Origin: Crocinitomicaceae bacterium
GTDB taxonomy: Bacteria; Bacteroidota; Bacteroidia; Flavobacteriales_G; Salibacteraceae
NCBI GenBank assembly: GCA_002705995.1
Contig: PAJI01000006.1
Location: 456,394-517,766 of the forward strand
Length of the DNA: 61,373 bases
Reading direction: 5' to 3'
How positions within the stretch are numbered: the stretch's first letter is position 1; each line of letters starts with the position of its first letter. Below are positions 1 through 44,119 of the stretch, piece after piece. A program made the position numbers and the translations under genes. The notes below the pieces were generated by a model, which saw nothing but the letters and a program-made list of their open reading frames with translations, made no database searches and had not been told where the DNA came from.

Positions 1-486
1 ATTGACTTCATATGTTAATGTACCTGATTTAGAAACGATACCTACTTTTCCTGGTTTGAAAACGAAACCTGGCATGATACCTACTTTCGCTTCGCCAGCA
101 GTGATTACACCCGGACAGTTAGGTCCGATAAGTGTACATCCTTTATCTTTAATGTAGTTTTTCACTACAGTCATATCGTTTACTGGAATACCTTCTGTAA
201 TCGTTACAATTACTTTGATACCAGCTTCTGCAGCTTCCATAATCGCATCAGCAGCGAACGCAGGCGGAACGAAAATGATCGAAACATCAGCTCCGGTTTC
301 TTTTACTGCATCTGCTACAGTGTTAAATACAGGACGATCAAGGTGTGTTTGACCACCTTTTCCAGGAGTTACACCTCCTACAACGTTGGTTCCGTAAGCT
401 ATCATTTGCTCAGCGTGGAAAGTACCTTCGCTTCCCGTAAATCCCTGTACGATTACTTTAGAATCTTTGTTTACAAGTACACTCAT
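1..486 (-). CDS. sucD: Succinyl-CoA ligase (ADP-forming) alpha subunit, 5' part
   Basis: Catalyses, with the beta subunit SucC, the reversible conversion of succinyl-CoA to succinate with ATP/GTP formation in the TCA cycle, in the cytoplasm. The first 162 residues are present. They show the CoA-binding Rossmann domain with the hallmarks [10 protein letters not shown] near residue 16, GGVTPGKGG near 40, ITEGIP near 97 and GPNCPG near 119. The gene runs off the left edge, so the active-site phosphohistidine in the C-terminal half is not visible. The ATG (reverse complement of 484-486) follows a textbook Bacteroidota promoter. Identification is secure from the strong conservation of this family. 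Confidence 0.97.
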
Positions 487-2809: not shown

Positions 2810-4198
2810 ATGCAAACATTTACCGATGATACTATTTGTGCGTTAGCTACCGGTTCAGGGCCGGCTGCCATTTCTGTTATCCGACTTTCCGGGCCGGAAG
2901 CCGTTACCATTTGTAACCGCGTGTTCAAAGGTAAAGACTTAACGCAAGTTTCATCGCATACCATTCATTTTGGCACCATTCGCAATGACGATAATTCGAT
3001 TCTTGACGAAGTGTTGGTGAGTGTTTTCCTCAACCCGAATTCGTATACGGGAGAAGATGTGATTGAAATTTCGTGTCACGGTTCGCCCTTTATCCGCCAG
3101 GAAGTGATCAATTTATTGATGACAAAAGGTGCGAGAATGGCCAAGCCAGGTGAGTTTACATTGCGTGCGTTTTTGAATCAGAAGCTAGATTTATCGCAAG
3201 CCGAAGCGGTGGCCGATTTGATCAATGCAGATTCTGAAGCTTCGCACCGTTTGGCGATGCAACAAATGCGCGGTGGCTTTTCTAACGAGATTGGAAAATT
3301 GCGTCAGCAGTTGATTGATTTTGCCAGTTTAATTGAGCTGGAGCTCGATTTCAGTGAAGAAGATGTGGAATTTGCAGATCGGGATGCGCTGAACCGTTTG
3401 TTGCTAAAATTGCACCAATTGACGTATGATTTGATTCGTTCGTTTAAGGTGGGTAATGTGATGAAAAATGGTGTTCCTGTGGTAATTGCCGGAAAACCCA
3501 ATGCCGGAAAGAGTACCTTACTGAACCAGTTGTTGAAAGACGAACGCGCCATTGTTTCTGACATTGCCGGAACTACCCGCGATGTGATTGAAGACGAAAT
3601 GGTATTGGATGGCATTGTATTCCGCTTTTTCGATACGGCTGGCATTCGTGAAACGCAAGACACGGTTGAAGCCATTGGTGTGCAAAAAACGCTGGAGAAA
3701 ATTCATGCGGCTGCCATTGTGATCTATTTGTTTGATGTGAACGATATGGAACCGGATGAACTCCAAACCATTGTAACCGATCTGCAACAACAAACCGATC
3801 AGAACAATGCGCAATTGTTGGTAGTGGCCAATAAAATTGATGGTCACAGTACTGAAGAATTGCAACAGCGTTATCCATTCATTGAAAACCCTGTATTTAT
3901 TGCTGCCAAAAGCGGTACAGGCATTACTGAACTGGAAAAGCGCTTGACTGATTTTGTAAACACTTCTGCCGTGGGCAACGAAGATGTGGTAGTGACCAAC
4001 TCACGCCATTACGAAGCCTTAGTGAATGCCAATGAAGCTTTATTGCGTGGACACCAAGGATTGGAAAATGGCATTACCGGAGATTTCATAGCGATGGACA
4101 TTCGCCAAGCTTTACACTACCTAGGCGAGATTACCGGAGAAATTACCAACGATGATTTGCTGGGCAATATTTTCGCTAATTTTTGTATCGGAAAGTAA
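2810..4198 (+). CDS. mnmE: tRNA uridine-5-carboxymethylaminomethyl(34) synthesis GTPase MnmE
   Basis: With MnmG it modifies the wobble uridine of certain tRNAs in the cytoplasm. The 462-residue protein has the N-terminal folate-binding domain (SYTGEDVIEISCHG), a helical domain and an inserted GTPase with G1 GKPNAGKST (about 228-236), G2 GTTRD, G3 DTAG and G4 NKID. It ends in the invariant tail FCIGK, whose Cys is needed for modification. The ATG at 2810 is chosen because MQTFTDDTICALAT is the family N-terminus; the ATG-like start at 2777 lies inside the divergent gene's 5' end. The last codons and stop lie in attL (4183-4202): the island uses this gene as attachment site and leaves it intact. 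Confidence 0.97.
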   Translation: MQTFTDDTICALATGSGPAAISVIRLSGPEAVTICNRVFKGKDLTQVSSHTIHFGTIRNDDNSILDEVLVSVFLNPNSYTGEDVIEISCHGSPFIRQEVINLLMTKGARMAKPGEFTLRAFLNQKLDLSQAEAVADLINADSEASHRLAMQQMRGGFSNEIGKLRQQLIDFASLIELELDFSEEDVEFADRDALNRLLLKLHQLTYDLIRSFKVGNVMKNGVPVVIAGKPNAGKSTLLNQLLKDERAIVSDIAGTTRDVIEDEMVLDGIVFRFFDTAGIRETQDTVEAIGVQKTLEKIHAAAIVIYLFDVNDMEPDELQTIVTDLQQQTDQNNAQLLVVANKIDGHSTEELQQRYPFIENPVFIAAKSGTGITELEKRLTDFVNTSAVGNEDVVVTNSRHYEALVNANEALLRGHQGLENGITGDFIAMDIRQALHYLGEITGEITNDDLLGNIFANFCIGK

Positions 4199-4202
4199 TT
4201 AC
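4183..4202 (+). repeat. attL: left attachment core of the integrative island
   Basis: A 20-bp sequence, TTGTATCGGAAAGTAATTAC, recurs exactly at 44100-44119. With one mismatch the match extends to 25 bp (4183-4207 against 44100-44124). The copy covers the mnmE codons for Cys-Ile-Gly-Lys and the stop, so integration restores the gene. The tyrosine recombinase gene starts about 590 bp further in, the usual int-proximal arrangement. Confidence 0.9.
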
Positions 4203-4263
4203 CTTTCCCTTTGTTAGCTAATCACTTCTTATAGTGCATTTTAGGCTGTTTTTCTTTCTCTTA

Positions 4264-4318
4264 TTTGTTACTGATTTGCCTATTTTTTCGTATCTTTCGT
4301 TACTAATTTGTTACTAAG
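4264..4318 (+). repeat. Integrase arm-type repeats, left end
   Basis: TTTGTTACTGATTTG at 4264-4278 is repeated exactly at 44039-44053, inside the right end. A one-mismatch copy, GTTACTAATTTG, lies at 4299-4310 and a shorter one, GTTACTAAG, at 4310-4318. Direct repeats just inside both att cores are what lambda-type integrases bind with their N-terminal arm domain. The binding role is inferred from position and repetition. Confidence 0.65.
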
Positions 4319-4370
4319 AACACCATTTTTGTTTCTAGCAACAGATTAGAAGTATCAAGGGGGAGATTAT

Positions 4371-4416
4371 GTTACATACAGATACATTCTGATACATAGC
4401 GATACACCCTGATACA
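4371..4416 (+). promoter_or_regulatory. Helically phased GATACA iterons before the excisionase-like gene
   Basis: GATACA occurs at 4381, 4391, 4401 and 4411, exactly 10 bp apart, with a related GTTACA at 4371. Five hexamers one helical turn apart place identical faces on the same side of the DNA. They lie 22-67 bases upstream of the ATG at 4438. They may be a cooperative binding site for the adjacent HTH protein (recombination directionality or autoregulation); that role is inferred. Confidence 0.6.
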
Positions 4417-4437
4417 GAAACACGAAAGAGAGAGAAC

Positions 4438-4791
4438 ATGAGTAGCAATCTTCGTATTCCGAAAATCTGTCAGGATTGTGGTAGCGATTTTATCGCCAAA
4501 ACCACCGTTACTCAATATTGCAGTGACAAATGTGCCAAGCGAGCTTATAAGAAGCGCAAGCGCAAACAGAAGGTTGAAGCTGTTCCCACCCTTTCACAGC
4601 AAAAGGTCAATCACTCCAAAGAGATAGTTGGCGACAAAGAGTTTCTAAGCATTAAAGAAACCTGTCAGCTATTAGGCACAAGCAGAATGACGATTTACCG
4701 CCAGATCAAGAGCGGAACAATCCCTGCGGCCAAGGTTGGAGCCCGTACCATTATTAAGAGAACCGATATTGAAAAACTGTTTACAGTATGA
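4438..4791 (+). CDS. Excisionase-like protein: zinc ribbon plus MerR/HTH_17 domain
   Basis: Small DNA-binding protein of 117 residues. Cys11, Cys14, Cys28 and Cys32 form a probable zinc ribbon, followed by a basic linker (KKRKRKQK) and, from about residue 65, an excisionase-family winged helix (LSIKETCQLLGTSRMTIYRQ). Its last four bases overlap the integrase start (ATGA at 4788-4791), so the two are translationally coupled. This order, a small HTH protein immediately before a tyrosine integrase at the att end, suggests a recombination directionality factor. It could equally be a regulator of the integrase operon. Confidence 0.75.
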   Translation: MSSNLRIPKICQDCGSDFIAKTTVTQYCSDKCAKRAYKKRKRKQKVEAVPTLSQQKVNHSKEIVGDKEFLSIKETCQLLGTSRMTIYRQIKSGTIPAAKVGARTIIKRTDIEKLFTV

Positions 4792-5882
4792 AAGTAACAT
4801 TGAGAGAACGCCACCAGGGCGGCAAGATCAGCTTATACCTTGACTACTATCACAAAGGCAAGCGCAAAGCTGAGTACCTGAAACTATACATTGAGCCAAA
4901 CCCGAAATCCAAGGCAGAAAGGGAACTCAACAAAAAGACTATGCAGCTTGCAGAATCAATCCGTGCTAAACGCCTGATTGAAATTCAAAACGGTGTGTAT
5001 GGCTTCCGAGACAATGAAAAACTGAAAGGCAGTTTCCTAGAGTATATTCAACTCTTAACCAACAAGCGTCACAACAGTAAGGGCAACTACGGGAATTGGG
5101 ACAGTATGCTCAAACACTTGAAAGGCTACATTCCTTATGATAAGACCTTTGAAGAAATAGACCGACAGTTTGTAATGGGTTTCAAGGAATACCTTGACCA
5201 TGATGCAAAGAAGTCAAGCGGTCAACCGCTTTCCCAAAACTCAAAGTACTCCTACTTCAACAAGCTCAGAGCAGCGCTCAAACAAGCAGTAAAGGACGGT
5301 ATTATACCAAGCAATCCAAGTGAAGGCGTTGAAGCCTTTAAGCAAGGTGAACCTCAGCGAGAGTTTTTAACATTAGAAGAACTGCAAGCTGCAGCGCAAG
5401 CAGAATGTGAAATTCCTGCGATTAAGACAGCCTTTTTATTCTCAGCCCTCACAGGGTTAAGATGGTCCGATATTCAGAAGCTACTTTGGTCAGAAGTACA
5501 GCATTCAAATGATAACGGGTATTACATCCGATTCAGACAAAAGAAAACCAAAGGAGCAGAAACCCTCCCTATTTCAGAACAAGCCTTTGGCTTGCTTGGT
5601 GAAAGGCAAGCACCCGAAGAACGAGTATTCAAAGGATTGAAATACTCTGCATGGCATAACCTGAAATTGCAACAATGGATGATGAAAGCTGGTATCTCCA
5701 AAACCATCACTTTCCACTGTGCTCGTCATACTTATGCCACTTTGCAGCTTACGGCAGGAACTGATATTTACACAGTCTCAAAGCTCTTAGGCCATAAGGA
5801 ATTGAAGACCACCCAAGTCTATGCCAAAATCATAGATGAAAAGAAACAGGAAGCAGCCAACAAAATCAAACTTGACCTATGA
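4788..5882 (+). CDS. int: Tyrosine recombinase / integrase of the island
   Basis: Site-specific recombinase expected to join attP to the 3' end of mnmE. The 364-residue protein has an N-terminal arm-binding domain (about 1-60), a SAM-like core-binding domain (about 75-185) and a catalytic domain. The catalytic residues are visible: Arg225 in TGLRWSD, a Lys around 253-255, His310 and Arg313 in HCARHTY, His336 in LLGHKELKTTQ and the nucleophile Tyr345. All are intact, so the enzyme should be active. It resembles the phage/conjugative-transposon integrases common in Bacteroidota. The gene overlaps both neighbours by 4 bases. Confidence 0.95.
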   Translation: MKVTLRERHQGGKISLYLDYYHKGKRKAEYLKLYIEPNPKSKAERELNKKTMQLAESIRAKRLIEIQNGVYGFRDNEKLKGSFLEYIQLLTNKRHNSKGNYGNWDSMLKHLKGYIPYDKTFEEIDRQFVMGFKEYLDHDAKKSSGQPLSQNSKYSYFNKLRAALKQAVKDGIIPSNPSEGVEAFKQGEPQREFLTLEELQAAAQAECEIPAIKTAFLFSALTGLRWSDIQKLLWSEVQHSNDNGYYIRFRQKKTKGAETLPISEQAFGLLGERQAPEERVFKGLKYSAWHNLKLQQWMMKAGISKTITFHCARHTYATLQLTAGTDIYTVSKLLGHKELKTTQVYAKIIDEKKQEAANKIKLDL

Positions 5883-7126: not shown

Positions 7127-7426
7127 ATGGACGAAATAATTGAACGTCTTGAAAATCTCCAACGCCTAATTGAGAGCCAGGGGATTTATACGAAAGAAGT
7201 TTTAAACTTCAATGAGGCTTGCCAGTACTTGGAACTTTCACAGTCACACTTGTACAAGTTGACAAGTGCAGGGAATATTCCACACTACAAGCCAAATGGA
7301 AAAAAGCTCTATTTCAAGAGAACTGAGTTAGAAAGCTGGTTGCTACGCAACCGCAATGCCACTCAGGAAGAAATAGACCGTAGAGCTGCGGATTACCTAA
7401 TCAAGAAAGGGAGGGTAAAGCTATGA
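7127..7426 (+). CDS. Small HTH_17 (excisionase-family) DNA-binding protein
   Basis: A 99-residue protein. A short N-terminal helix is followed by a winged helix of the excisionase/MerR type (about 25-75): FNEACQYLELSQSHLYKLTS, then IPHYKPNGKKLYFKRTELESWL. Pairs of such proteins ahead of primase-like genes are usual in Bacteroidota integrative elements, where they are thought to control excision or replication genes. It overlaps the next gene by four bases. Exact role unknown. Confidence 0.75.
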   Translation: MDEIIERLENLQRLIESQGIYTKEVLNFNEACQYLELSQSHLYKLTSAGNIPHYKPNGKKLYFKRTELESWLLRNRNATQEEIDRRAADYLIKKGRVKL

Positions 7427-7719
7427 CAGAGGGTTTCGATATGCTCTTGACAGTAGCTCAAGACATAAAAACAATCAAAGCATACCTCCTCAATTTCCAT
7501 AAGTCACGATTGGAGCAATTCAGTGACGAATGGATTGATGGTCAGGTAGTGATGCAAACGCTGCACGTTAGTAAAAGAACCCTTCAATCCCTTCGGGATA
7601 GTGGGGTTCTTCCCTACAGCCGAATCAATGGCAAGTTCTATTATAAAGTTTCCGACATGGAGGCTTTATTGGAATCCAACTACTCACCTTCAAAATCAAA
7701 GCATTATGGAGATCAGTAG
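7423..7719 (+). CDS. Second small HTH_17 DNA-binding protein
   Basis: A 98-residue protein with a helical N-terminus and a winged helix at about 38-90 (MQTLHVSKRTLQSLRDSG, LPYSRINGKFYYKVSDMEALL). It is similar in layout to the preceding protein but clearly diverged. It starts within the ATGA overlap at 7423 and overlaps the primase-associated gene by 14 bases, so the three form one translation-coupled unit. It probably acts as a regulator or accessory of the replication/excision module. Confidence 0.75.
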   Translation: MTEGFDMLLTVAQDIKTIKAYLLNFHKSRLEQFSDEWIDGQVVMQTLHVSKRTLQSLRDSGVLPYSRINGKFYYKVSDMEALLESNYSPSKSKHYGDQ

Positions 7720-13497: not shown

Positions 13498-15597
13498 ATG
13501 TCCAACCATACCTTCAACATACTCACATTCAATCACCCTCAGGAAGAGCAAACCTTTTACTTCACTGACCAGGAACAAGCCAACCTCACAAGGATGTACA
13601 AATCGCTTGTACCTGATGAGGTTATTGAAAAGTATGGAGAGCAAGACCATTATTACACATCATTTACAGTCGAGGAGGAAGGTTTTTTAGCAATATCAAA
13701 ACCAACAAGTCCGAAGTTTGAAACCAAGACGAATGAGCAAGGTGAAGAACGTTCATATACCATCCGTAATTCTACCTTTTCCACTTCAGTACTAAAGAGA
13801 TATTATAATTCGCTCATACATAGCCATTTCAAAGAGAAGGGCTTTTTAGTAAAGCCCAATTTTGTAAGTGATACAGAAGTTTGGCTTCCAAGTGCCAAAC
13901 AAGACACCACAGGCAAGTACAAGATATTCGACCGCTTCTCCCTCAAAGTACAATTTAAAACCGTTTCCGACAGTCTTGAATTGTTGGTGACATTTGAAGG
14001 TAAATCCAAAATCTTCAAAGTTCCTGTCTCCACTCTTTTAGAGGATGTATCTCCGACAGATATTAATTGGGTAGTGTACGAAAAGGGTCTGTACCGATTT
14101 GATGAGTTGCCTGATAGTGGCAAAAGAGAATATGACAAGGTGTATCCAGTATGGAATTTCGAAATCAGAGATGCATTAATGCAAGGAACGGAAGCCCCGG
14201 ACAAAACCAATAAGTACAAAAAGTTTAGAGAGGGAATCGACAAGTTCTACAATCAATACCTGAATACAGAGGAGTTCAAAGCCATCATTCCAATTACCTC
14301 CAATGGATTCATACCAGTTAATAAAATCAATATCGGGTCAGTCAATAATTCCAGTAACCGCCTTTTATTCGGTGAACAAAAGTCTGGTATTGTGCCAATG
14401 GATGGAATGAAAGAGCATGGCCCCTTTGATTTCAGCTCTACTTCTAAAATCCACTTCTTTTTCATCTTCCATAAAGATGATCAACACATCGCCCAGAAGA
14501 TGGACGGTTATTTCAAAGGATCAGAATTTGGCTTTAAAGGATTGGTCAAGTTTATTCATACAACTTACCACACCGAAAAAGGATTCAGTATAAGGTTTGA
14601 TGACAGAGATGATCCATGGCCAGAAATCTATGAAGCCATTACCAATAAACACTTTGAATCTGACATTCAGTACATCGCCATTTATATCAGTCCATTCTCC
14701 AAAAATGCTCCAGACAAATCAAGAAGGAAGATATACTACAAGCTGAAAGAATTGCTACTGAAAGAAGGCGTATCCTCACAGGTAATTGATGGAGAAAAGG
14801 TAATGACTAATGAAAAGTACTATTACAGCTTACCAAATATTGCAATTGCCATTTTAGCCAAATTGAACGGCATTCCGTGGAAACTGGATACCAAGCTCAA
14901 GAACGAATTGATTGTAGGGATTGGAGCATTCAGAAACTCAGAGGTAGATATACAATACATTGGCAGTGCTTTTAGCTTCGCTAACAATGGGAAATTCAAC
15001 CGTTTTGAGTGCTTCCAAAAAGACCAAACAAAAGAGTTAGCAGGTTCAATTATCAGAGCAGTAAAAGAGTATGCAAATGTAAATACAGGCATCAAACGGC
15101 TTGTGATCCACTTCTACAAGAGTATGAGGCAAGATGAACTACAACCGATAGAAGACGGCCTCAAAGACCTTGGATTAGACATTCCAGTATTTATAGTTTC
15201 CATCAACAAGACAGAATCCTCAGACATTGTTGCATTTGATAACAGTTGGAAAGACCTTATGCCAATGAGTGGCACTTTCATAAAGGTTGGATACAACAAG
15301 TTCCTGCTATTCAACAACACAAGATACAGCCCAAAATTCTACAGCTTCCATGACGGCTTTCCGTTCCCGATAAAGCTGAAAATCTTTTGTACAGAAAAAG
15401 AGCTGGTAGAGGAATATAAGACAGTAAAGGAACTGATTGATCAGGTATATCAGTTCAGTCGAATGTATTGGAAATCAGTAAGACAACAGAACTTACCAGT
15501 TACCATCAAATACCCTGAAATGGTAGCAGAAATGCTCCCTCATTTTGATGGCAATGAAATACCTGAATTTGGAAAAGACAATCTTTGGTTTTTATGA
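13498..15597 (+). CDS. Long prokaryotic Argonaute, PIWI active site probably degenerate
   Basis: A 699-residue pAgo. N, L1 and possibly a reduced PAZ occupy about 1-370. The MID domain (about 380-465) has a Y-K-Q-type 5'-guide-binding pattern (YYKLKELLLKEG, then SSQV, and AILAKLNGIPW). PIWI follows from about 470 to the family-type hydrophobic end WFL. At the first catalytic position, usually Asp in VGID, residue 476 is Gly (IVGIGAFRN). At the second, the usual Asp after the beta-strand ending in His is replaced (LVIHFYK, 536-541). Near the end IKYPEMV has no Asp at the usual place. It therefore probably binds guide and target without slicing. It sits directly behind the R-M genes and its stop overlaps the Fur-family start. 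The family is certain; inactivity is an eye alignment. Confidence 0.88.
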   Translation: MSNHTFNILTFNHPQEEQTFYFTDQEQANLTRMYKSLVPDEVIEKYGEQDHYYTSFTVEEEGFLAISKPTSPKFETKTNEQGEERSYTIRNSTFSTSVLKRYYNSLIHSHFKEKGFLVKPNFVSDTEVWLPSAKQDTTGKYKIFDRFSLKVQFKTVSDSLELLVTFEGKSKIFKVPVSTLLEDVSPTDINWVVYEKGLYRFDELPDSGKREYDKVYPVWNFEIRDALMQGTEAPDKTNKYKKFREGIDKFYNQYLNTEEFKAIIPITSNGFIPVNKINIGSVNNSSNRLLFGEQKSGIVPMDGMKEHGPFDFSSTSKIHFFFIFHKDDQHIAQKMDGYFKGSEFGFKGLVKFIHTTYHTEKGFSIRFDDRDDPWPEIYEAITNKHFESDIQYIAIYISPFSKNAPDKSRRKIYYKLKELLLKEGVSSQVIDGEKVMTNEKYYYSLPNIAIAILAKLNGIPWKLDTKLKNELIVGIGAFRNSEVDIQYIGSAFSFANNGKFNRFECFQKDQTKELAGSIIRAVKEYANVNTGIKRLVIHFYKSMRQDELQPIEDGLKDLGLDIPVFIVSINKTESSDIVAFDNSWKDLMPMSGTFIKVGYNKFLLFNNTRYSPKFYSFHDGFPFPIKLKIFCTEKELVEEYKTVKELIDQVYQFSRMYWKSVRQQNLPVTIKYPEMVAEMLPHFDGNEIPEFGKDNLWFL

Positions 15598-44038: not shown

Positions 44039-44053
44039 TTTGTTACTGATTTG
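44039..44053 (+). repeat. Integrase arm-type repeat, right end
   Basis: TTTGTTACTGATTTG is identical to 4264-4278 and lies 46 bases inside attR, in the same orientation as the left copy. Confidence 0.65.
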
Positions 44054-44099
44054 TACCTAGAAGCACATAACTAACTGATAATCAATAGTGCTTTAGATA

Positions 44100-44119
44100 T
44101 TGTATCGGAAAGTAATTAC
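44100..44119 (+). repeat. attR: right attachment core of the integrative island
   Basis: Exact 20-bp copy of the attL core at 4183-4202. It reproduces the mnmE codons for Cys-Ile-Gly-Lys-stop but has no mnmE sequence before it, as expected for the distal junction after integration. The distance between the cores gives an island of 39.9 kb. Confidence 0.9.

Follow-up and report, generated by a model that had tools for sequence, protein, structure and literature searches.

What is the function of five nearly identical hexamers placed immediately ahead of a gene for an excisionase-like protein? The array that raises this question lies in a stretch of 61,373 nucleotides from a Crocinitomicaceae bacterium, hereafter the window, and had been described in a sequence-only reading as GATACA-type words with exact helical phasing, possibly the site of the excisionase (Xis), an operator or both. 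Direct reading of the sequence confirmed the five positions (Table 1) and a unit spacing of exactly 10 bp. With one mismatch allowed, GATACA-N4-GATACA occurs four times in the window, every copy being in the array, a number matched in none of 100 dinucleotide shuffles (shuffle mean 0.23); exact copies number three across the 4.49 Mb genome, all within the array. The longest run of G[ACT]TACA words spaced by 10 bp has five members, while 200 Markov windows gave runs of one (196 windows) or two (four windows). The array is also the top-scoring four-unit stretch of period 10 in the window (score 42; the runner-up scored 30), and no second GATACA-type run was found in the window or in the 4.49 Mb genome.

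The same reading held that coding sequence does not account for the array. The array does lie outside every gene called here, but an RBS-like box and an ORF of seven codons (4369-4392, MLHTDTF) share bases with its first unit; this GGNGAAATNATG-like box precedes the ORF, at 4361. In 49 of 79 arrays of relatives an RBS-like box and an NTG codon are likewise present at the array, with ORFs of varying length and frame. The array ends 21 bp before the start codon of the excisionase-like gene.

Upstream, the gene ending at 4198 is one that we take from its sequence to be mnmE. Since the 20-bp segment at its 3' end recurs exactly near position 44,100, an island of approximately 39.9 kb is delimited, with the array at its left end. 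The order of elements at this end is attachment core, arm-like sites, array, excisionase-like gene and integrase gene, the array being approximately 170 bp inside the attL core and adjoining the arm-like sites of the integrase; at the island's right end, as seen in the window, no array is present. No sigma-70 promoter was found within 4150-4500. The consensus of the Bacteroidetes-type -7 element is TAnnTTTG, and a candidate for it precedes the array; among the relatives this motif was found upstream of 37 of 79 arrays, compared with a mean of 14.1 and a maximum of 21 in mononucleotide shuffles and with eight on the other strand.

Table 1. Features of the array, its neighborhood and the island ends (positions in the window).
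Feature	Position	Strand	Details
attL core, 3' end of mnmE	4181..4202	+	20 bp TTGTATCGGAAAGTAATTAC at 4183-4202, exact repeat at 44100-44119
Putative integrase arm-type site TTGTTACTGA	4265..4274	+	repeated exactly at 44040, near the right end; role proposed
Possible Bacteroidetes-type -7 element TATCTTTC	4291..4298	+	one mismatch to TAnnTTTG; weak in the window itself
Two arm-type-like sites, TCGTTACTAA (4297) and TTGTTACTAA (4308)	4297..4317	+	11 bp apart; role proposed
RBS-like box GGGAGATTATG	4361..4371	+	directly ahead of the first unit and overlapping it
Array, proposed excisionase filament site and operator	4371..4416	+	GTTACA 4371; GATACA 4381, 4391, 4401, 4411
Excisionase-like protein, 117 aa	4438..4791	+	N-terminal Cys4 zinc-ribbon-like part; HTH_17 winged helix (residues 69-115); specificity residue Met84
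Tyrosine integrase	4788..5882	+	Arm-DNA-bind_5, SAM-like and catalytic domains; start codon overlaps the last bases of the preceding gene
Right-end arm-type-like site	44040..44049	+	copy of TTGTTACTGA
attR core of the island	44098..44119	+	contains the 20-bp repeat (44100-44119)

Other genes of the island were noted in passing. A Piwi-domain protein (13498-15597) is prokaryotic Argonaute-like (PF02171, E 7e-14), its neighbors being, by inspection, a putative methyltransferase gene (10921) and a restriction-like gene (12500). A metal-efflux cargo (16447-38186) comprises two P-type ATPases, cation-efflux proteins and two RND transporters, one of which carries a fused outer-membrane efflux domain; primase-like proteins are encoded as well. 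Two small HTH_17 proteins are encoded in tandem at 7127-7426 and 7423-7719, the first matching Tn916-Xis weakly (E 0.022), and no GATACA-type array was found ahead of these two genes in the window.

The excisionase-like gene (xis) and the integrase gene (int) form a two-gene operon, int starting four bases before the end of xis, and the xis-int order is common to most relatives. Residues 69-115 of the excisionase-like protein (the 4438 protein) match PF12728 (HTH_17, E 4.6e-14) and TIGR01764 (excisionase family, E 2.5e-12), both above the cut-off. Four cysteines in its first half, C11, C14, C28 and C32, are invariant in an alignment of 11 sequences; no Pfam model passes the cut-off on this N-terminal half, and the label "zinc-ribbon-like" is therefore given by inspection. 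The AlphaFold model of the protein has a mean pLDDT of 82.5 and a pTM of 0.47. Its C-terminal domain resembles Pukovnik Xis (Z 8.2), BldC in complex with DNA (8.0), RdfS (6.6), Tn916 Xis (5.9) and lambda Xis in complex with DNA (5.6), and the GIsul2 excisionase is also among the fold matches; by Foldseek the best E-value is only 9e-3, which is weak, and Z scores in the middle range are common for the winged-helix fold. Pukovnik Xis was also matched by profile (E 8.8e-4), in agreement with these fold matches. The locus thus combines features of winged-helix excisionases, or recombination directionality factors (RDFs): a winged helix-turn-helix of the HTH_17/excise family, an adjoining tyrosine integrase and one-turn tandem repeats near the attachment core.

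Conservation of the array before homologous genes, which had been suggested as a check, was analyzed in relatives collected from genome contigs (24 loci), one viral contig and whole-genome searches, with overlaps between the sets. Relatives were found in 46 of 395 genomes sampled over the class, in 21 of 395 sampled over the phylum, which added few new loci, and then in 29 of 291, 1 of 21, 16 of 64 and 1 of 12. Viral, plasmid and phage collections contained relatives only in one viral contig, three plasmids and three phage records, the viral one alone entering the set. Left out were six loci in which no start was found (L023, L075, L081, L093, L108, L131), one with a short upstream region (L142) and four duplicates of the locus in the window (L025-L027, L030); two further places in genome G887 are outside the locus set. 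Removal of redundancy on the basis of shared 8-mers left 92 of the 132 loci as representatives. An mnmE-type FCIGK end was found upstream at 116 of 139 loci, duplicates included, across Bacteroidia. In one locus left out, L023, the excisionase gene is interrupted (5001-5346, 40-aa product), the array and the integrase being retained.

In the 130 bp upstream of xis, the best run of four adjacent units was scored for each period against 300 dinucleotide shuffles. Period 10 was found in 79 of these 92 non-redundant loci at p<=0.05 and in 68 at p<=0.01, while periods 7, 8, 9, 11, 12, 13 and 14 yielded 2, 2, 4, 11, 11, 8 and 5 loci, respectively, at p<=0.05; some of the counted arrays are chance matches in T-rich DNA (for example, L071, L090 and L113), and 13 of 92 loci have no period-10 array. 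In a control region within the excisionase gene, period 10 was found in 4 of 91 loci. Another control region, from -300 to -170, showed an excess (31 of 91), so a period-10 signal exists farther upstream as well, some of it in T-rich DNA and some resembling second arrays with other words. In L058, L060, L061, L063, L064, L117, L120 and others, a second stretch of 10-bp period was observed 130-290 bp before xis, toward the attachment core, with another word such as CGATTATCAA or CGATAATCAA.

The phasing is shared by the related arrays, and the word varies: GATACA, GC(A/T)ACA, GCACCA, G(A/G)CACA, GAAACA and GTTGAC were observed. In the first set of loci the word corresponded to residue 84 of the excisionase: methionine with GATACA or GTTACA; tryptophan with GCTACA, GCAACA or GCACCA; arginine with GACACA, GGCACA or CACTTA; and glutamine with GTTGAC. 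GAAACA is carried by most loci with threonine at this position. The rule for the first four residues and the class models from the first set were fixed before new upstream regions were inspected. The residue class was then predicted correctly for 21 of 26 new arrays (permutation p 5e-5): 10 of 10 for arginine, 7 of 8 for tryptophan, 3 of 3 for methionine and 1 of 5 for glutamine; nine further new arrays, having another residue or none at position 84, could not be scored. Leave-one-out classification with removal of relatives at least 60% identical was correct for 58 of 69 arrays.

Three of the 79 arrays have no residue 84, leaving 76 excisionase-operator pairs, of which 13 are without a near-full integrase. 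For the remaining 63 loci, 463 excisionase and integrase columns were ranked with the identity of both proteins controlled. Excisionase columns 84 (0.326), 99 (0.232, in the wing) and 76 (0.227, in the helix) were at the top; the best integrase column scored 0.184. When integrase identity alone was controlled (35 loci), integrase columns 159 (0.354) and 155 (0.336) had equalled residue 84, but their signal vanished under joint control. Arrays sharing residue 84 are more similar in every band of integrase identity, and 21 changes of this residue are needed on the integrase tree. Independent pairs never pointed in the opposite direction for methionine, tryptophan, arginine and threonine, and were too few for significance.

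Residue 84 lies in the recognition helix of the excisionase. Residues 68..117 of the model align with BldC 10..60, and the offset of these ranges, with one gap unplaced, would make residue 84 the counterpart of Lys26 and residue 88 that of Arg30. In BldC both are reported to be base-contacting residues of the recognition helix, Lys26 with flexible readout and Arg30 at a pyrimidine-guanine step (PMC5859096). R88 is nearly invariant in a small excisionase alignment. Of 55 arrays whose excisionase has R88, 45 include CA (read as TG on the opposite strand) in their consensus unit, compared with 5 of 11 for K88.

The phasing is conserved, contrary to the lack of conservation that had been named as a ground for refutation, and the word follows the excisionase recognition helix and not the integrase. 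"Xis site, operator or both" is therefore still the best reading of the array. Sequence comparison strongly supports the excisionase as the likely binding partner, and the array is very probably the site of a head-to-tail filament of this RDF, which would probably serve both excision and autoregulation. Direct repeats one turn apart, bound cooperatively and head to tail with bending of the DNA, are described for RDFs (PMC7498355, consulted in part), and cooperative binding here is suggested by the one-turn spacing and by the relatives. One winged-helix domain would occupy each 10-bp unit, inserting its recognition helix into the major groove. Adjacent protomers, joined head to tail on the same DNA face, would form a short bending filament lying between the operon and the arm sites; the simplest reading is a filament of five protomers on 4371-4416. 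Located on the attachment arm, the filament could shape the excisive complex and help to build it at the left end; since the probable 5' leader of xis-int contains the array, which is placed between the probable promoter and the xis start codon, the filament could also throttle the operon. DNA bending, stimulation of excision and repression are thus the activities that we would expect of the 4438 protein. A precedent is RdfS, which, in the excerpts of the source consulted, binds attP and its own promoter and autoregulates negatively (PMC11963761).

The same precedent also suits an array that is purely an operator, by which the protein would repress its operon or set the timing of its expression, with no architectural part in excision. 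The place of the array shortly before the xis start and downstream of the probable promoter, and a right end without one, agree with this; against it, the array is on the attachment arm near the core and beside arm-like sites, and both fold and operon are typical of excisionases. We regard an exclusively regulatory role as unlikely, although it is the most serious competitor. Units recognized by the N-terminal domain of the integrase would be a different matter. Arm sites can be tandem, as lambda P'1-P'3 are, and GCAACA in some related arrays is similar to TAGCAAC, the arm-like motif at the same loci. The arm-like motif of this island, TTGTTACTNA, is different, however, and is present at both ends, while the array is present at one; under joint control no integrase column ranks above excisionase columns 84, 99 and 76, and the best column of the arm domain, I18, reaches 0.18 compared with 0.33 for residue 84. 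Near-sister integrases are accompanied by different arrays: L024 (N84) and L133 (R84) have different excisionases and different arrays (fork support 93, not starred). With the best integrase column falling to 0.18 over the 63 loci, integrase arm sites were rejected as a very improbable explanation.

A leader peptide or RNA element, in which translation of xis is controlled by a short ORF that begins with the box GGNGAAATNATG and the first unit, would account for the box and NTG at many arrays and for the six of those 49 whose ORF stops within xis, 1-4 bases from its start. Yet ORF length ranges from 3 to 100 or more codons, the frame relative to xis is unconserved (18, 17 and 14 arrays in the three frames), each 10-bp copy shifts the frame, arrays without a box or ORF exist (L024, L061), and the link to the recognition helix is left unexplained. 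It is improbable as an explanation, slightly less so than arm sites, and a leader peptide is possibly an added feature. Two further possibilities are that the units are iterons from which the excised circle replicates or that an unrelated host protein binds them. In favor are the primase-like proteins of the island; neither possibility predicts a word following the excisionase recognition helix across Bacteroidia, and a family search identified neither gene adjoining the array as a known replication initiator. We consider these two together the least probable of all.

The preferred filament site belongs to a known kind, RDF operator arrays. In the literature searched, which included few subscription papers, we found no description of the zinc-ribbon-like excisionase family, of its arrays, of its breadth at mnmE or of a sharp specificity linked to residue 84. 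Apl and RdfS, both well studied, are poor readers of DNA: Apl discriminates by approximately 4.5-fold and RdfS has no consensus motif in the parts of the sources consulted, so that their choice of sites is difficult to explain. The specificity observed here is decodable, whereas well-studied excisionases have none of this kind: in 76 natural excisionase-operator pairs a sharp word shifts with one helix residue, which makes specificity accessible to single-residue swaps. The combination of a 10-bp array, a zinc-ribbon-like HTH_17 gene and an integrase at mnmE can serve as a marker for the left end of many Bacteroidia islands. Tentatively, and with rather less than even confidence, we suggest that islands competing across Bacteroidia for the mnmE 3' end diversify the single residue 84 (M, W, R, T or Q) along with a multi-unit operator, giving each island a private directionality and a readable specificity code, the leader filament both licensing excision and shutting the operon.

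Among known systems, Pukovnik Xis, lambda Xis and Tn916 Xis share the winged-helix fold, and their genes adjoin that of a tyrosine integrase, as here; the 4438 family differs from them by an added N-terminal Cys4 zinc-ribbon-like part and by occupying Bacteroidia islands at mnmE. SGI1-type islands of Gammaproteobacteria also integrate at the 3' end of trmE/mnmE (PMC8409611, as far as consulted), but belong to another phylum, the likeness considered here being the insertion site. RdfS of ICEMlSym(R7A), an HTH_17-type RDF of similar fold, binds attP and its own promoter (PMC11963761); it differs in having no consensus motif, according to the available part of that paper, and an extra N-terminal helix where the 4438 family has the zinc-ribbon-like part. 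BldC of Streptomyces, close in fold, makes head-to-tail filaments on direct repeats (PMC5859096); it is a developmental regulator without an integrase, and its repeat at whiI is 9 bp. Head-to-tail binding on tandem sites, the role proposed here, is reported for lambda and Pukovnik Xis (PMC7498355). Apl of phage 186, both excisionase and regulator, is likewise similar in its one-turn direct repeats, with seven operators at pR-pL, used at the attachment site and at promoters; in the accessible part of the same source its other sites lie between early phage promoters and it distinguishes specific from non-specific DNA only approximately 4.5-fold (PMC7498355), whereas here a single array precedes xis-int and its sharp units track a residue of the recognition helix.
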